From a virus, in the IMG/VR virus record IMGVR_UViG_3300021061_000028, positions 1 to 44,088 of that record: a stretch of DNA of 44,088 nucleotides; one strand, 5' to 3'. Within the stretch, counting starts at the first letter, position 1. Every line of letters begins with the position of its first letter. Of the stretch, positions 1 to 44,088 are shown in pieces. The notes under the pieces were generated by a model. The model did not search any database and had not been told where the DNA came from. It was given only the letters and a program-made list of their open reading frames with translations. A program made the translations under genes and the position numbers.

Positions 1-150
1 CCGCTCCAGAAGGGCGGGAAAGCCCGCTACGTCACGCTAGGTGCTTATCCCTCTCTTACCCTGGCCGACGCCCGCAGGAAGGCGGGGGAGCTGCAGGGCA
101 AGCCGCTTGACCACACGGTTGCCTACGCGGTTGAGCAGTACCTCAAGTCT
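1..150. repeat. Left copy of terminal direct repeat (contig closure)
   Basis: These 150 bases repeat the last 151 bases of the window. An A present in the right copy (AGAAAGGG against AGAAGGG, near position 11) is missing, and position 128 is C here and T in the right copy. The repeat lies inside the integrase gene. Only the right copy keeps the frame with the upstream start codon, so the missing A is probably an error at the contig end. The simplest reading is a circular or concatemeric genome cut arbitrarily by assembly. Confidence 0.93.
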
Positions 151-930
151 CTCCAGTATGCCCGCCCTGAGGAAGTAAAGCGGCGCCTCGAAAAGGACAT
201 CGTGCCCGAGATCGGGGCAAAAAAACTGTCCCAGATCACGGCCGGCGACATTTCCTCTGCCCTGCAGAAGATCGTAGATCGAGGCTCGCCCGTTTCAGCC
301 AACCGCACCTTGGCCGACGTGCGCCACGTATTCGACTTCGCCTACGGGAAGGGCTGGATCAACTCGGACCCATCCCTCCGGATTACGCGGAAAGTAATCG
401 GCGGGCGCGAGAAGAGCCGGGATACCGTCCTCACCGATACGCAGCTCTATCGGCTCATCCAAGCCCTCAAGACGGACCGGTTCGCCCTCAAGACGCGGGT
501 GGCGCTTGCTCTCATCCTCGCTACCGGCCAGCGGCCCTCTGAGGTACTCGGAATCGACCCTAAAGAGGTCAAAGGCGAGTGGTGGACCATCCCCGCGGAG
601 CGCACGAAAAACGGACGCGCCCAAAAGGTCTACCTGACCCACCTCGCCCGCTGGCTCCTAAAGGCCGTGAAACACAAATTGGGCGGGGATCATCGGGCAC
701 TAGCTCGCGCCATGAGCCGGTTCGGCGGCGAATATACCCCCCATGACCTTCGCCGGACCATGAGCACGAAGATGGCTGACATCGGCGTCCCGCCTCACGT
801 CATTGAGAAGTGCCTCAATCATCAGATGACCGGCGTCATGGCCGTCTACAATCGAGCCGAGTACCTTGCCGAGCGCAAGGCGGCGTGGAAACAGTGGGCT
901 CGCTATCTTTTCGCAGTGAAGGAGGAATAA
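1..930 (+). CDS. int: Tyrosine integrase, C-terminal catalytic part (continues from 43828)
   Basis: Site-specific recombinase of the P4-like tyrosine integrase family. It joins phage attP to a chromosomal attB. The N-terminal third is at the right end of the window; joined across the terminal repeat the protein is about 346 residues, a little shorter than the usual 380-420. Catalytic features visible here are the first Arg in ATGQRPSEV, a Lys in the beta-hairpin RTKNGRAQK, HDLRR (H-x-x-R), the His of LNHQ (usually LGH) and the final Tyr of AVYNRAEY. The frame is intact from about base 13. The next gene starts 4 bases after the stop, and its ribosome site lies in the integrase tail, so the two are probably co-transcribed. 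The attP core lies just upstream of the start at 43828. Confidence 0.95.
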   Translation, partial: PLQKGGKARYVTLGAYPSLTLADARRKAGELQGKPLDHTVAYAVEQYLKSLQYARPEEVKRRLEKDIVPEIGAKKLSQITAGDISSALQKIVDRGSPVSANRTLADVRHVFDFAYGKGWINSDPSLRITRKVIGGREKSRDTVLTDTQLYRLIQALKTDRFALKTRVALALILATGQRPSEVLGIDPKEVKGEWWTIPAERTKNGRAQKVYLTHLARWLLKAVKHKLGGDHRALARAMSRFGGEYTPHDLRRTMSTKMADIGVPPHVIEKCLNHQMTGVMAVYNRAEYLAERKAAWKQWARYLFAVKEE

Positions 931-934
931 AACA

Positions 935-1585
935 ATGGCCAAAATGTCGGCCGCAGAAAACCTGCTGGTCTCACTCCACGGCCAGAAATTTTCCACGGTA
1001 CTTGCCGATCCGCCCTGGCAGTTCATGAACCGCACGGGAAAGATGGCGCCGGAGCATCGCCGCCTCAATCGCTACGGCACGATGAAGCTGGAGGAGATCA
1101 AGGCGCTTCCCGTGCTCCCGCTTCTCAATGACACGGCGCATTGCTACCTGTGGGTCCCCAACGCCCTTTTGCCCGAAGGTCTCGAAACGCTCAAGGCATG
1201 GGGCTTCGAGTACAAGAGCAATATCATCTGGCACAAGATTCGGAAGGACGGGGGACCGGACGGCCGCGGGGTCGGCTTCTACTTCAGGAACGTCACCGAG
1301 ATTGTTCTCTTTGGCGTTCGCGGCATCAACGCGCGGACCCTCGCCCCGGGCCGGCGCCAGGTGAACATCATCAAGTCCATGAAGCGGGAGCACAGCCGAA
1401 AGCCTGACGAGCTGTATCCGATCATCGAGGGCTGCAGCAGCGGGCCGTATCTGGAACTATTCGCCCGCGGTCCGCGCAAGGGATGGGCGGTCTGGGGCAA
1501 TCAGTCACAGGACTATTACCCCGACTGGAACACGTACGGCAACCATTCCCAAGCCCACCGAAAACTCAAACTGGTGAAGGCCTAG
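935..1585 (+). CDS. MT-A70 family adenine-N6 DNA methyltransferase
   Basis: MT-A70 proteins transfer a methyl group from S-adenosylmethionine to adenine N6. The catalytic DPPW motif is at residues 25-28, followed by the family pattern LWVPNALLPEGL and WGFEYKSNIIWHK, then REHSRKPDELYPIIE and a C-terminal YLELFARGPRKGWAVWGN. The 216-residue length is normal for a single-domain enzyme. The ribosome site GGAGGA lies about 9 bases before the ATG, within the end of the integrase gene. The gene converges on a BamHI/BglII-like endonuclease, and both stops are read from the same palindromic CTAG (1582-1585). It could be the modification half of a restriction system or a solitary anti-restriction methylase. 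The target sequence cannot be read from the DNA. Confidence 0.9.
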   Translation: MAKMSAAENLLVSLHGQKFSTVLADPPWQFMNRTGKMAPEHRRLNRYGTMKLEEIKALPVLPLLNDTAHCYLWVPNALLPEGLETLKAWGFEYKSNIIWHKIRKDGGPDGRGVGFYFRNVTEIVLFGVRGINARTLAPGRRQVNIIKSMKREHSRKPDELYPIIEGCSSGPYLELFARGPRKGWAVWGNQSQDYYPDWNTYGNHSQAHRKLKLVKA

Positions 1586-2256
1586 TCATCGTCCTCTGCT
1601 TTCACCAAAGCTGAGGGCGGTACGGCCTTCTTCCCTCGCTTCTTCTTTTCTTTCGGTGGAAGGATTGTGTCCTCGTCCACATACAGATTCTTGGTGATTC
1701 CAAGAACGAGCAAGGGACATCCACCGCCGCTACCTCCTTCAATTCGCGGGACCAACTTCTCCATGTGCGTCGTGGAGTTGCCAAAGCTCTTCCCGCGCTT
1801 CAGCTTTACAAAGATGTCCTGAAGGTGCGTGGCGCGAGTGATGATTACTCCCACGCTTACCACATCGAGTTGATGCAACAGCCGGAAGTTATTCAGGTCC
1901 CGGTCGTAAAACGGGTCCTTGTTGTTCCACTCGATTTCGAGCGCGATTCGGTTCTTGAAGCAGTCAACGCTGTGCGTCGGTGACGGACTCTCCACCTTAT
2001 CGACGGTGATTTTGGTGTCGAACATCTTCTCGACCCATTCGTGCTTCAGCAGCTCGCCGTCAATCCAGCGGGAGACATGGGATTTTGAGCCGCCCTTGAC
2101 CGTGATGTAGTTGCGATACAGCCGGAAGCGGGTGAGCACATCCACCATTTGCTCCCACTCTTTCGGAAAGTCCTGCGCCATGATCGCGCAGGCGTGTCCC
2201 CACTCATAGCATTCGTAGTTCTCGCGAATGAATAGCGGCAACAGGTCAAGCGACAT
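1582..2256 (-). CDS. BamHI/BglII-like type II restriction endonuclease
   Basis: The 224-residue protein matches, by my recognition, the BglII endonuclease family (PF09195). The stretch IALEIEWNNKDPFYDRDLNN followed by GVIITR is typical. D98, E107 and E109 reproduce the D-x8-E-x-(Q/E) metal-binding spacing of BglII and the E-x-E of BamHI. A Gly-rich block GGSGGGCP lies near residues 174-181. The C-terminal tail is lysine-rich (KEKKKRGKK) then acidic. It is convergent with the MT-A70 methylase. Family members cut sites with a GATC core (GGATCC, AGATCT, RGATCY). AGATCT (14320) and GGATCC (27440) both occur here, so this phage would need protection if either is the target. Activity is not proven. 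Confidence 0.75.
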   Translation of the reverse strand: MSLDLLPLFIRENYECYEWGHACAIMAQDFPKEWEQMVDVLTRFRLYRNYITVKGGSKSHVSRWIDGELLKHEWVEKMFDTKITVDKVESPSPTHSVDCFKNRIALEIEWNNKDPFYDRDLNNFRLLHQLDVVSVGVIITRATHLQDIFVKLKRGKSFGNSTTHMEKLVPRIEGGSGGGCPLLVLGITKNLYVDEDTILPPKEKKKRGKKAVPPSALVKAEDDD

Positions 2257-2314
2257 CTACGCCCCCCTTATTTGCCGCGAATGTATCAGATAGCGTTCCC
2301 CATTTCCTAGCGCT

Positions 2315-2334
2315 ACCAGTGGGCCTATACTGGT
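2315..2334. promoter_or_regulatory. Operator-like inverted repeat over a -10-like box
   Basis: ACCAGT (2315-2320) and ACTGGT (2329-2334) form a perfect 6-bp inverted repeat separated by 8 bases. The right arm overlaps TATACT (2326-2331), a good -10 candidate for rightward transcription of the AlpA-like gene. No convincing -35 box is visible 17 bases upstream. The site sits in the divergent region between the endonuclease and the regulator, so a repressor bound here could control both. Confidence 0.45.
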
Positions 2335-2354
2335 CTCGCCCAGGGCATCAACCT

Positions 2355-2374
2355 GAGGCAGCCGCGACTGCCTC
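2355..2374 (+). promoter_or_regulatory. Hairpin in the leader of the AlpA-like gene
   Basis: GAGGCAG and CTGCCTC form a perfect 7-bp stem with a 6-base loop. It lies just upstream of the GGGAGA ribosome site of the regulator at 2395. There is no T-run, so it is not a terminator. It may affect translation or mRNA stability. Confidence 0.4.
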
Positions 2375-2394
2375 CCTAAACGGGAGACAGCGCG

Positions 2395-2601
2395 ATGGAA
2401 ACACTGATGTCGATGAAAGAAGTCTGTAAGGCAACTTCACTCTCGCGGGCTTCGATTTACCGCAAGGTGGACGAAGGGAAGTTCCCGAAACCGATTGAGC
2501 TAGATACTCCGCGTAAGCTCAACAGTAAGGGGCAACCGACCGGACGCATTGCGTTTGTCAGGTCCAAGATTGAGAAGTGGATCATTGATCGCATCACGTA
2601 A
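2395..2601 (+). CDS. alpA: AlpA-type small DNA-binding regulator / excisionase
   Basis: A 68-residue single-domain helix-turn-helix protein. The order MSMKEVCKATSLSRASIYRK, a basic GKFPKPIEL and a C-terminal GRIAFVRSKIEKWI is that of the AlpA/MerR-like family, which in P4-type elements acts as excisionase or activates integrase-region transcription. The GGGAGA ribosome site is about 8 bases before the ATG. An inverted-repeat operator candidate and a leader hairpin precede it and a strong terminator follows, so it is its own transcription unit. With the nearby integrase, a role in excision control is likely, but activation of the accessory block is also possible. Confidence 0.8.
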   Translation: METLMSMKEVCKATSLSRASIYRKVDEGKFPKPIELDTPRKLNSKGQPTGRIAFVRSKIEKWIIDRIT

Positions 2602-2623
2602 ACATCCCTACGGGGAGCGTTTC

Positions 2624-2650
2624 GAGGCCGGCTAACCACCGGCCTTTTTT
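2624..2650 (+). terminator. Rho-independent terminator after the AlpA-like gene
   Basis: GGCCGG and CCGGCC-type arms (2626-2644) form a GC-rich stem followed directly by six T. The next gene starts 3 bases after the T-run, so it may need read-through or its own promoter. Confidence 0.85.
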
Positions 2651-2652
2651 CT

Positions 2653-3078
2653 ATGACCCGCTACGTCATCATTTCTTTGGTCGTGCTCGTCGCGCTGGTA
2701 GTAGGGACTGCGCTTCAGTACACACCAAAGAAAGAAGAACCCCGCCCCACTATTCCCGCCAAAGAAGCGCGGGAACCAGGCGACTGTACTTACTCACGTC
2801 CCTGTACCTTAACCGTAAGACAAGACGGTTCAACCGATACGATTCCGGTGAAGCCCGGCTATCGCGTGTGCTTTGACCCACCAGTAGGCGCGAATCTTGA
2901 AGGATTCGGTTATCGAATCACGAGTGACGGGCGCGAGTACGTCTTTAATTGCACTCCTGACGAACTCGGCCAACAGAAATGCAAGCTCCCGCCGCCTGAC
3001 AGTTTCCGGTTCGTACCGAAGCCAGGTGTCACTCCACCACGGTACTGGTTCACCAACGACCCAGGCATCTTCTGCTGA
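2653..3078 (+). CDS. Membrane-anchored Cys-containing protein, paralogue A
   Basis: Function not recognised. The 141-residue protein has one N-terminal hydrophobic segment (about residues 4-21) without a lipobox, so most of it should be extracytoplasmic. Blocks shared with the next gene are RY-hydrophobic, ALQY-PK, DCT-SRPCTL, VCFDP, FGYR, and DSFRF-P-PG-TPP-YWF, with the last residue a Cys. The even spacing of Cys suggests disulfide bonds in the periplasm. The stop overlaps the next ATG (ATGA), so the two are translationally coupled. The pair sits immediately left of the hairpin-rich region and the coupling-ATPase genes. Entry exclusion, superinfection exclusion or a surface component of a transfer apparatus are all possible. 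Confidence 0.75.
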   Translation: MTRYVIISLVVLVALVVGTALQYTPKKEEPRPTIPAKEAREPGDCTYSRPCTLTVRQDGSTDTIPVKPGYRVCFDPPVGANLEGFGYRITSDGREYVFNCTPDELGQQKCKLPPPDSFRFVPKPGVTPPRYWFTNDPGIFC

Positions 3079-3509
3079 TGGCTCGATACATATTCATCGC
3101 GCTTGCAGTTTTTGTCGCCGTGGTCATTGCAACGGCTCTTCAATATCAACCGAAAGAATCGCGACAGAGCACGACCCACGTACAACCAGTCATCGAACAG
3201 CGACCTGTACATGACTGCACCTCTTCGCGTCCCTGCACCCTACAAGTTACCAACGGCACTACAGACCTTGTACGCATCCCTGACGGGAAAACTGTTTGCT
3301 TCGACCCACATTTCTGGGACAACCTTCCCCGGCTCGGCTATCACTACTCTTACCGTGGAAGACCTGAAGTTCGTTATACCTGCACCAGGAATGAAGCGGC
3401 GGCTGGCAAGTGCGCTCAAATTTACGCAGACACGTTTCGATTCGCTCCCGACCCAGGTATCACCCCACCCGCCTACTGGTTCGCGCCTATCGGCACGCCG
3501 CAGTGCTGA
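3078..3509 (+). CDS. Membrane-anchored Cys-containing protein, paralogue B
   Basis: A tandem duplicate of the preceding gene with diverged sequence (143 residues). It has the same single N-terminal membrane segment, the same DCTSSRPCTL, TVCFDP and DTFRFAPDPGITPPAYWF blocks, and a terminal Cys. The ATG overlaps the upstream TGA. No enzyme motif is visible. Its last codons contain GCGCCTATCGGC (3484-3495), a 12-base string repeated at 3572-3583 in the structured region downstream, so that region may begin inside the gene. Function unknown; see the partner. Confidence 0.75.
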   Translation: MARYIFIALAVFVAVVIATALQYQPKESRQSTTHVQPVIEQRPVHDCTSSRPCTLQVTNGTTDLVRIPDGKTVCFDPHFWDNLPRLGYHYSYRGRPEVRYTCTRNEAAAGKCAQIYADTFRFAPDPGITPPAYWFAPIGTPQC

Positions 3510-3511
3510 CC

Positions 3512-3935
3512 TCACATACCACTCTCCACTCTAGTATGTGACCCCTGTACGGTACTGAACCACTGTACATAGCGCCTATCGGCTCACTATCCCGCACCAG
3601 TCGCGCCCGCTAGCGCGTTCGACTGCGTGTGCTGTGCACTCCTCCTATTCAGTCGTCGGCCAAGCCTTTGCGCTAGCGCTTAAAGGACAGCCCCCGCAGT
3701 CGAACGCTTTGCGTCAGACGACTGGTGCGGGACTGTTACCGACCAGGCGCGTCTATCGACCGACGCCTGCTGTACCCCTCAAGTAATCCTGATTGCGCGG
3801 CGATCAGAAACTCACTTTGACTGTTACTAACTGCACGACAGAGGGGCACTGTCGCGCTAGTATTTATGTGGACTTGTTCCTTGTTTGGGCTGGCGGAAGC
3901 TCCCTTGCAAGGCGCGAGTTCTCTTCCCCCAGCCC
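3512..3935. other. Hairpin-rich non-coding region (candidate origin / oriT)
   Basis: About 420 bp without a convincing gene, packed with inverted repeats. TCACATAC/GTATGTGA (3512-3541). TGTAC-GGT/ACC-GTACA (3546-3569). A long cruciform with CCCGCACCAGTCG (3591-3603) pairing CGACTGGTGCGGG (3719-3731), inside it GCGTTCGACTGCG (3615-3627) pairing CGCAGTCGAACGC (3695-3707), and at its tip CCTTT-GCGCTAGCGC-TTAAAGG (3665-3686). CAGGCG/CGCCTG (3744-3769). CTGATTGC/GCGATCAG with a triloop (3789-3807). CGACAG/CTGTCG (3836-3854). GGGCTGG/CCAGCCC (3887-3935). CAGTCGTC (3650) can also pair with GACGACTG (3717), competing with the outer stem. The density resembles single-strand origins, packaging signals or oriT. 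The genes to the right (coupling ATPase, relaxase-like) favour oriT or a rolling-circle origin. No nick site can be assigned. Confidence 0.7.
3853..3860 (+). promoter_or_regulatory. GCTAG promoter-like motif upstream of the 269-aa gene
   Basis: CGCGCTAG followed by TATTTATG lies about 85 bases before the ATG at 3942. The same GCTAG core recurs before at least four other rightward genes. Possible -10 element; the -35 is not clear. Confidence 0.3.
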
Positions 3936-3941
3936 AGCTAC

Positions 3942-4748
3942 ATGAATTACCTCTGCGTCGGGACAAACAAAAGACCGTTACTTGAACGGATCAAAAGGCA
4001 CATTCCCGAACCTTTCTTACTCATTGATGACGGCACGATTATCGACTCACTTGATTTACCGAAGCGCAGAAAAGATAAATCCGCATTTCCAAAGGTGACG
4101 CGCTTCGATCCTGAAAGACATCATTTCAATCCTCTCAAGGACATTGATTATTTCCGCGAGCGCGAACTCGTCTCTGTCCTAGACAGCATCTCTCCGCGAG
4201 GCGACGGCACTCTTACCAAGGACACTGGATTAACCCTCGTCCTTCGAAATCTTCGCCAGTACAAACCAAAGTATCTAAAGCACCTTGTCCCGCGACCAGA
4301 CGGGCGAGCCACCACCGGCCACGTTTGGGCATACGACAAAGTTGACGAGATTCTCCTGTCGCCTGTCCTTGAGAGTGTCTTCTCGAAAGCCCGCAACTTT
4401 CCCATCAACGGCATCCTAATTGCCCGCCTAGATCCCGCCGTACTCGGAGAATACGACTGCCGAGTTCTCGGCAATTTCCTTATTTCGCAGTATCCGGGTA
4501 CGGTGGTCCTCACCGACTTCCCGCTCTACGCCGGAAAACACCATCTGCGCCTCATTCGGCAGCACCGGCTTTTCGCAGGAATCAATACTTTTGACGAGGT
4601 GCCACAGTTCAAACAACAATTGCTCCTCATAGACGAAAAGAAGGCGAGTCACTGCACGCCGGATGATGCAGAGACCCTATTCAAGTTCACCGGATTTCCA
4701 AAGGACAGTACCGAGCACAGAGACTTCATGACGGACGCACTTCAATAG
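3942..4748 (+). CDS. Uncharacterised protein, possible degenerate ATPase partner of the coupling protein
   Basis: From the ATG at 3942 the product is about 269 residues. A longer TTG-initiated frame from 3885 runs through the GGGCTGG hairpin and is less likely. No clear ribosome site precedes the ATG, so translation may depend on the upstream hairpin. Visible features are FNPLKDIDYFRERELVS, a GDGTLTKDTGLTLVLRNL segment and VVLTDFPLYAGKHHLRLIR followed by AGINTFDEV. From memory these resemble the later motifs of HerA/VirD4-like ATPases of mobile elements, but no Walker A is present. The next gene is a coupling ATPase 11 bases downstream in the same direction, so a shared complex is likely. Function inferred only from that context. 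Confidence 0.6.
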   Translation: MNYLCVGTNKRPLLERIKRHIPEPFLLIDDGTIIDSLDLPKRRKDKSAFPKVTRFDPERHHFNPLKDIDYFRERELVSVLDSISPRGDGTLTKDTGLTLVLRNLRQYKPKYLKHLVPRPDGRATTGHVWAYDKVDEILLSPVLESVFSKARNFPINGILIARLDPAVLGEYDCRVLGNFLISQYPGTVVLTDFPLYAGKHHLRLIRQHRLFAGINTFDEVPQFKQQLLLIDEKKASHCTPDDAETLFKFTGFPKDSTEHRDFMTDALQ

Positions 4749-43656: not shown

Positions 43657-43707
43657 TGGTCGGGGCGAAAGGATTCGAACCTTCGACCCCCTGCACCCCA
43701 TGCAGAA
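43657..43707 (-). other. attP: attP core: 3' half of tRNA-Pro(GGG)
   Basis: Read on the reverse strand: TGCATGGGGTGCAG (anticodon loop with GGG), then GGGGTCGAAGGTTCGAATCC (T arm) and GCCCCGACCA with CCA. This matches the 3' half of a tRNA-Pro(GGG). The 5' half and acceptor partner are missing upstream. The phage most likely integrates into a host tRNA-Pro gene, restoring its 3' end. Confidence 0.85.
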
Positions 43708-43812: not shown

Positions 43813-43828
43813 TACAGGAGCGGCTACA
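43813..43828 (+). repeat. 16-base direct repeat flanking attP, copy 2
   Basis: Identical to 43599-43614. It overlaps the ribosome site (AGGAG) and the A of the integrase ATG, so integrase bound here could block its own translation start region or promoter. Confidence 0.75.
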
Positions 43829-44088
43829 TGTTAAGCGACCGACAAGTACGAGCACTTGATCGACCCAATAGCATCGTTGCCGATGGCGGCGGCCTCTACC
43901 TCCGCGTCTCCGCCCACGGCTCAAAAACGTTCCTCTACCGCTCCAGAAAGGGCGGGAAAGCCCGCTACGTCACGCTAGGTGCTTATCCCTCTCTTACCCT
44001 GGCCGACGCCCGCAGGAAGGCGGGGGAGCTGCAGGGCAAGCCGCTTGACCACACGGTTGCCTACGTGGTTGAGCAGTACCTCAAGTCT
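43828..44088 (+). CDS. int: Tyrosine integrase, N-terminal part (continues at 1)
   Basis: ATG at 43828 with AGGAG about 8 bases upstream. MLSDRQVRALDRPNSIVADG and GLYLRVSAHGSKTFLYRSR, then RYVTLGAYPSLTLADARRKA form the DUF4102 arm-binding domain of P4-like integrases. The frame runs off the end and continues in the left copy of the terminal repeat to 930. See the entry at 1-930 for the catalytic part. Confidence 0.95.
   Translation, partial: MLSDRQVRALDRPNSIVADGGGLYLRVSAHGSKTFLYRSRKGGKARYVTLGAYPSLTLADARRKAGELQGKPLDHTVAYVVEQYLKS
43938..44088. repeat. Right copy of terminal direct repeat
   Basis: 151 bases, same as 1-150 except an extra A and one T/C difference. In this copy the integrase frame is intact, supporting it as the correct version. 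Confidence 0.93.

Follow-up and report, generated by a model that had tools for sequence, protein, structure and literature searches.

Does the locus beside the integrase gene of this virus encode a restriction-modification (R-M) system whose two halves belong together, or an endonuclease next to a methyltransferase of an unexpected kind? The question arises from a first-pass annotation, which described an MT-A70 methylase gene and a BamHI/BglII-like endonuclease gene as convergent, with one CTAG serving as both stops. The window analyzed here is the whole virus record (IMGVR_UViG_3300021061_000028; 44,088 bp), and its open reading frames bear out that layout. The methyltransferase gene (M; 935-1585, + strand) encodes 216 amino acids of the MT-A70 family, and the endonuclease gene (R; 1582-2256, − strand, read from 2256 to 1582) encodes 224 amino acids of a Type II enzyme of the BglII/BstYI fold. 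The two overlap tail-to-tail by 4 nt at a palindromic CTAG (1582-1585, both strands), in which the TAG at 1583-1585 (+) ends M and the TAG at 1584-1582 (−) ends R.

The ATG of M starts 4 nt 3' of the stop codon of a tyrosine integrase gene, the C-terminal 309 amino acids of which are encoded at 1-930 (+; PF00589, E 9e-18). A GGAGG at 921-925 (+), 9 nt 5' of this ATG and within the end of the integrase gene, is the probable ribosome-binding site of M. The integrase gene starts with an ATG at 43828, at the opposite end of the record, and its frame was joined across the overlapping ends. Indeed, positions 1-150 and 43939-44088 overlap over about 150 bp and differ there by a single substitution and a single 1-bp indel; the overlap indicates a circular or circularly permuted genome of about 43.9 kb whose integrase gene crosses the join. 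Just upstream of the integrase gene, positions 43657-43706 (−) resemble, by eye, the 3' half of a tRNA-Pro(GGG) gene, which is likely the attP core; ARAGORN found no complete tRNA there. On the other side of the pair, an intergenic region (2257-2394) separates R from its neighbor, which encodes a 68-amino-acid AlpA-like excisionase/regulator (2395-2601, +; PF05930, E 3.3e-11). Farther along, 2653-3078 and 3078-3509 encode adjacent small proteins predicted to be membrane-anchored, 47% identical to each other and with no convincing family match, an apparent tandem duplication.

Both family names given in the first-pass annotation are supported far above chance. The M protein matches PF05063 (MT-A70) with an E-value of 3.7e-29 (102.3 bits; cut-off 23.9) and the PADLOC model MTase_II for Type II methyltransferases with an E-value of 1.8e-89. 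Its DPPW motif (residues 25-28) is kept in 83 of 83 homologs, and it departs only once from columns conserved at 95% or more (C70 for L). M is thus predicted to be an MT-A70 adenine-N6 DNA methyltransferase. It also matches 7f4r (E 7.3e-19), and the catalytic domain with DPPW is common to M and to the MTA1c/METTL3-type proteins (7f4r, 5il0). Those MT-A70 enzymes are components of larger assemblies whose substrate is eukaryotic DNA or RNA; unlike them, the phage protein is a single-domain prokaryotic R-M methyltransferase.

The R protein covers the entire PF09195 (Endonuc-BglII) profile (1-163 of 163; E 1.2e-41, 142.6 bits, cut-off 26), while no PADLOC or NCBIfam model matches it. A PDB sequence search with the single protein gave no match and one with a profile of its branch gave a chance match only, but a wider profile found BstYI and BglII. 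The AlphaFold model of R (pLDDT 89.2, pTM 0.86, from a 41-sequence alignment) ends in a low-confidence tail of about 20 C-terminal residues. It superimposes on BglII with Z 17.2 (2.1 A over 147 residues), on BstYI with Z 17.2 (2.6 A over 163 residues), on BamHI with Z 14.5 and on OkrAI with Z 13.3, against Z 5.7 for the next match outside this group. The predicted structure therefore places R in the BamHI/BglII/BstYI PD-(D/E)XK fold. The residues D98, E107 and E109, which the first-pass annotation listed as retained, are all present and are conserved in 90/90, 89/90 and 90/90 homologs, respectively. Their arrangement, D98-x8-E107-x-E109, fits the family pattern D-x8-E-x-(Q/E). R shares with BglII and BstYI (PDB 1d2i and 1sdo/1vrr/2p0j) both the fold and the D-x8-E spacing. 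However, the corresponding BglII residues in the PDB alignment are D84, E93 and Q95, and the third active-site position of R is a glutamate, not a glutamine, which sets it apart from the E-x-Q branch of BglII and BstYI proper.

In this light, it seems very improbable that the system is decaying or silent and persists as passenger DNA: neither reading frame is truncated, every catalytic residue is present, and each protein departs from the conserved columns only once (in R, M26 for L). What would fit decay is that a consensus scan of positions 1-4000 detected no sigma-70-like site, and hence none for R. For this reason, the position of the R promoter in the intergenic region 2257-2394 is presumed.

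The first-pass annotation also held that MT-A70 is not the usual partner of BamHI/BglII enzymes. This did not turn out to be the case for the branch to which R belongs, as a methyltransferase of the same family adjoins the endonuclease at 80 of the 86 loci holding relatives of R. Most of these loci are tandem with the endonuclease first, and a minority are convergent. The CTAG overlap recurs at a Lysobacterales locus (L024), and at a Chiayiivirga (Lysobacterales) locus (L049) the convergent genes overlap by TTAG; the arrangement in the phage is therefore neither unique nor remarkable. On the tree, convergent order needs 2 changes versus a mean of 8.7 after shuffling, but the row of the phage is a long, poorly placed branch, so that a common origin of the arrangement is at most tentative. 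The divergence of R and M is correlated (r 0.60 when a distant group of endonucleases is left out; none of 500 permutations reached this value). In that distant group (L006, L091 and L092), the endonucleases are only about 30% identical and carry an inserted stretch, while the convergent methyltransferases are about 69% identical, so that the endonuclease either changed much faster or was replaced. Four actinobacterial plasmid loci (L093-L096) encode a longer MT-A70 relative, 64-70% identical, beside an AAA ATPase gene. No endonuclease is annotated beside it at any of the four, so this methyltransferase can spread by itself or together with an unrecognized partner, and these loci are possibly another kind of system.

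As the 86 loci had been picked as close relatives, a wider sample of PF09195 was drawn from three sets of genomes: 369 from the class to which a Luteimonas genome belongs, 398 from the phylum that includes a Cohnella genome and 395 from the phylum that includes a Bacteroidales genome. This search yielded 56 PF09195 loci (L136-L191), four of them the seeds. The partner recognized in their flanks was of the MT-A70 family at 21 loci, a D12-type adenine methyltransferase at 3 and of the N4 type at 21 (called by the (T/S)PPY motif alone), and none was recognized at 11. An E-x-E-W active site was found at 24/24 loci with an m6A-type (MT-A70 or D12) partner, whereas the N4-type loci showed E-x-Q-F in 19/21 cases and E-x-E-W in 0/21. 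MT-A70 is the partner at 21 of the 24 E-x-E-type loci. BstYI and BglII are themselves E-x-Q, and the loci of their branch carry m4C-type partners; R has E-x-E, and its neighbor is an MT-A70 protein with DPPW rather than an N4-cytosine-type enzyme. The earlier expectation thus holds for the BglII/BstYI branch and is invalid for the branch of the phage enzyme: across the sampled BglII-family loci, an E-x-E active site goes with a partner of the m6A type and an E-x-Q site with one of the N4 type. Published results also link partner chemistry to enzyme sensitivity, as m6A leaves BstYI unblocked but blocks R.Nph3I (PMC10734518), and Dam gives protection against a BglII/BstYI-type enzyme of Acinetobacter A118 (PMC10287943).

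The first-pass annotation had allowed that the endonuclease might lack activity and its homologs be unrelated. The opposite was found: R is 63% identical to R.Nph3I (over 87% of the query) and M is 67% identical to M.Nph3I (over 94% of the query), a pair of adjacent genes, homologous over most of their length, whose products are active in vitro on RGATCY (PMC10734518) and are the nearest relatives to have been tested. Nph3I is encoded by Nitratiruptor phage NrS-3 (LC545444; BCD83124.1 and BCD83123.1), which is likewise temperate, and both protein families are common to the two phages. The two enzymes were made cell-free by Zhang et al. 2023: R.Nph3I cleaved all four RGATCY variants and was fully blocked by m6A, M.Nph3I produced RG(6mA)TCY in vitro, and long-read sequencing detected about 100% RG(6mA)TCY in NrS-3 and its host (PMC10734518). 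Among the characterized enzymes in REBASE, the one closest to the NrS methyltransferases is M.Dor12838I, also of RGATCY specificity (PMC9723563). The two loci nevertheless differ, as the two NrS-3 genes lie in tandem within the regulatory region, R preceding M by a 12-nt gap, whereas the genes described here converge on a shared CTAG with M directly 3' of the integrase gene, and the phage R has an additional disordered C-terminal tail.

Two further systems are comparable. Mesorhizobium phage vB_MloP_Lo5R7ANS, a podovirus (Autographiviridae), encodes the same pair (gp13/gp14; 52% and 71% identity), likewise beside an integrase gene, but its genes are in tandem and overlapping. The RM cluster of Acinetobacter baumannii A118 includes a BglII/BstYI-type enzyme and m6A at position 3 of RGATCY, and Dam protects against this enzyme (PMC10287943). 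The A118 cluster differs in being chromosomal, in having a methyltransferase annotated as DNA adenine methylase and in carrying an HTH regulator between the two genes.

Taken together, we consider it highly likely that the locus is an intact Type II R-M system of the Nph3I kind (RGATCY, m6A) that a temperate tailed phage carries as accessory cargo. This reading draws on the integrity of the genes, their families, the fold, the catalytic residues, the regular pairing and the absence of the pair from relatives of the phage, all of which were observed. By analogy with the tested pair, the MT-A70 enzyme would methylate the adenine of RGATCY, giving RG(6mA)TCY, and the endonuclease, with its D-E-E metal site, would probably cut RGATCY wherever the methyl mark is lacking and be blocked by m6A. 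It should be noted that 63% identity is no guarantee of the motif, and the outer R/Y positions could differ.

Indeed, GATC-centered sites differ within this fold, BglII recognizing AGATCT, BstYI RGATCY and BamHI GGATCC. That the pair works but on a different target, be it AGATCT alone, GATC or some other GATC-centered site, would fit this diversity and the long, uncertainly placed branch of the phage R, but we judge it unlikely given the identity of both proteins to a tested RGATCY pair and a WNNKDPF-DRDLNNF stretch that is nearly invariant across the branch. Site counts neither support nor oppose the RGATCY motif, as the phage has 38 RGATCY sites where 40.3 are expected and is thus not depleted. 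The first 4429 nt have none (probability 0.018 under a uniform model, for a region chosen after the fact), and the absence of sites from the R and M genes (about 1.1 expected) is unremarkable. Several palindromic hexamers are strongly depleted (found/expected: CAGCTG 0/18.8, CTCGAG 0/18.8, GCGCGC 0/18.1, GAGCTC 2/22.8 and TGATCA 0/7.7), which may mark restriction in the hosts of the phage.

The other genes recognized in the record encode a terminase, a major head protein, a tail fiber, Erf and RecE-like recombination proteins and the AlpA-like regulator, a set that identifies a temperate tailed phage. The earlier description of a complete R-M pair beside the integrase gene of a tailed phage is therefore supported, the pair being intact and of Type II. 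The R and M genes are absent from 14 of 14 viral records sharing the terminase or the major head protein (records that may be fragments), a result that fits the pair being cargo; as a control, the same query recovered the record's own gene copy. Two of these 14 records have an integrase gene, with other small genes in its flanks. No relative of the phage integrase was found in viral contigs, and the R gene had no DNA match in E. coli genomes. Endonuclease-methyltransferase pairs of this branch occur in many phyla, on plasmids and phages and beside relaxase-like or mobilization genes.

This distribution, together with a gene order that places protection behind the integrase, is also what a selfish addiction module could show. 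In that case, the pair would first of all stabilize the prophage, as its loss would dilute the methyltransferase and leave residual endonuclease to cut the cell. We regard such a primary role as possible, though doubtful; addiction and defense may both apply at once, and the data here fit either. A mainly anti-restriction role, in which the methyltransferase would shield the phage genome from host enzymes cutting GATC or RGATCY and the endonuclease would be secondary, appears improbable. Phages often encode MT-A70 methyltransferases (346 records matched), and some GATC cutters would be blocked by m6A at RGATCY; however, the closest relatives of M are mostly accompanied by this endonuclease, and the phage endonuclease is intact and conserved.

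Returning to an Nph3I-type system carried as cargo, we infer the following for expression, regulation and defense in a lysogen. The methyltransferase would be translated from the integrase transcript and protect both the host and the prophage. A separate promoter on the opposite strand would drive the endonuclease, which would cut incoming DNA lacking the mark. For NrS-3, restriction of competitors by the prophage is likewise a proposal (PMC9723563, PMC10734518), the tests of its enzymes having been made in vitro (PMC10734518). We can also imagine, as a long shot, that the convergent shared-stop order 3' of the integrase gene is a control device, in which read-through from the integrase and methyltransferase genes is antisense to R. 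The endonuclease would then, just as speculatively, be off during integrase expression on entry and on once lysogeny is set. If true, such antisense control would tie restriction to the phage's decision for lysogeny, with no C protein required.

The pair is a further member of the Nph3I type; the Nph3I system itself has already been characterized, and prophage defense has already been proposed for it. This locus adds one temperate phage, of metagenomic origin, to the few in which both halves of an Nph3I-type system are present. The analysis also sets right a probable misreading of the family, as whether the partner is of the m6A or the m4C type goes, in the sampled loci, with the active-site variant of the endonuclease. 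The distinction between E-x-E and E-x-Q thus gives a simple rule for annotating the many genes labeled "BglII/BstYI family", and the same rule predicts whether m6A (Dam) would give protection against the enzyme.
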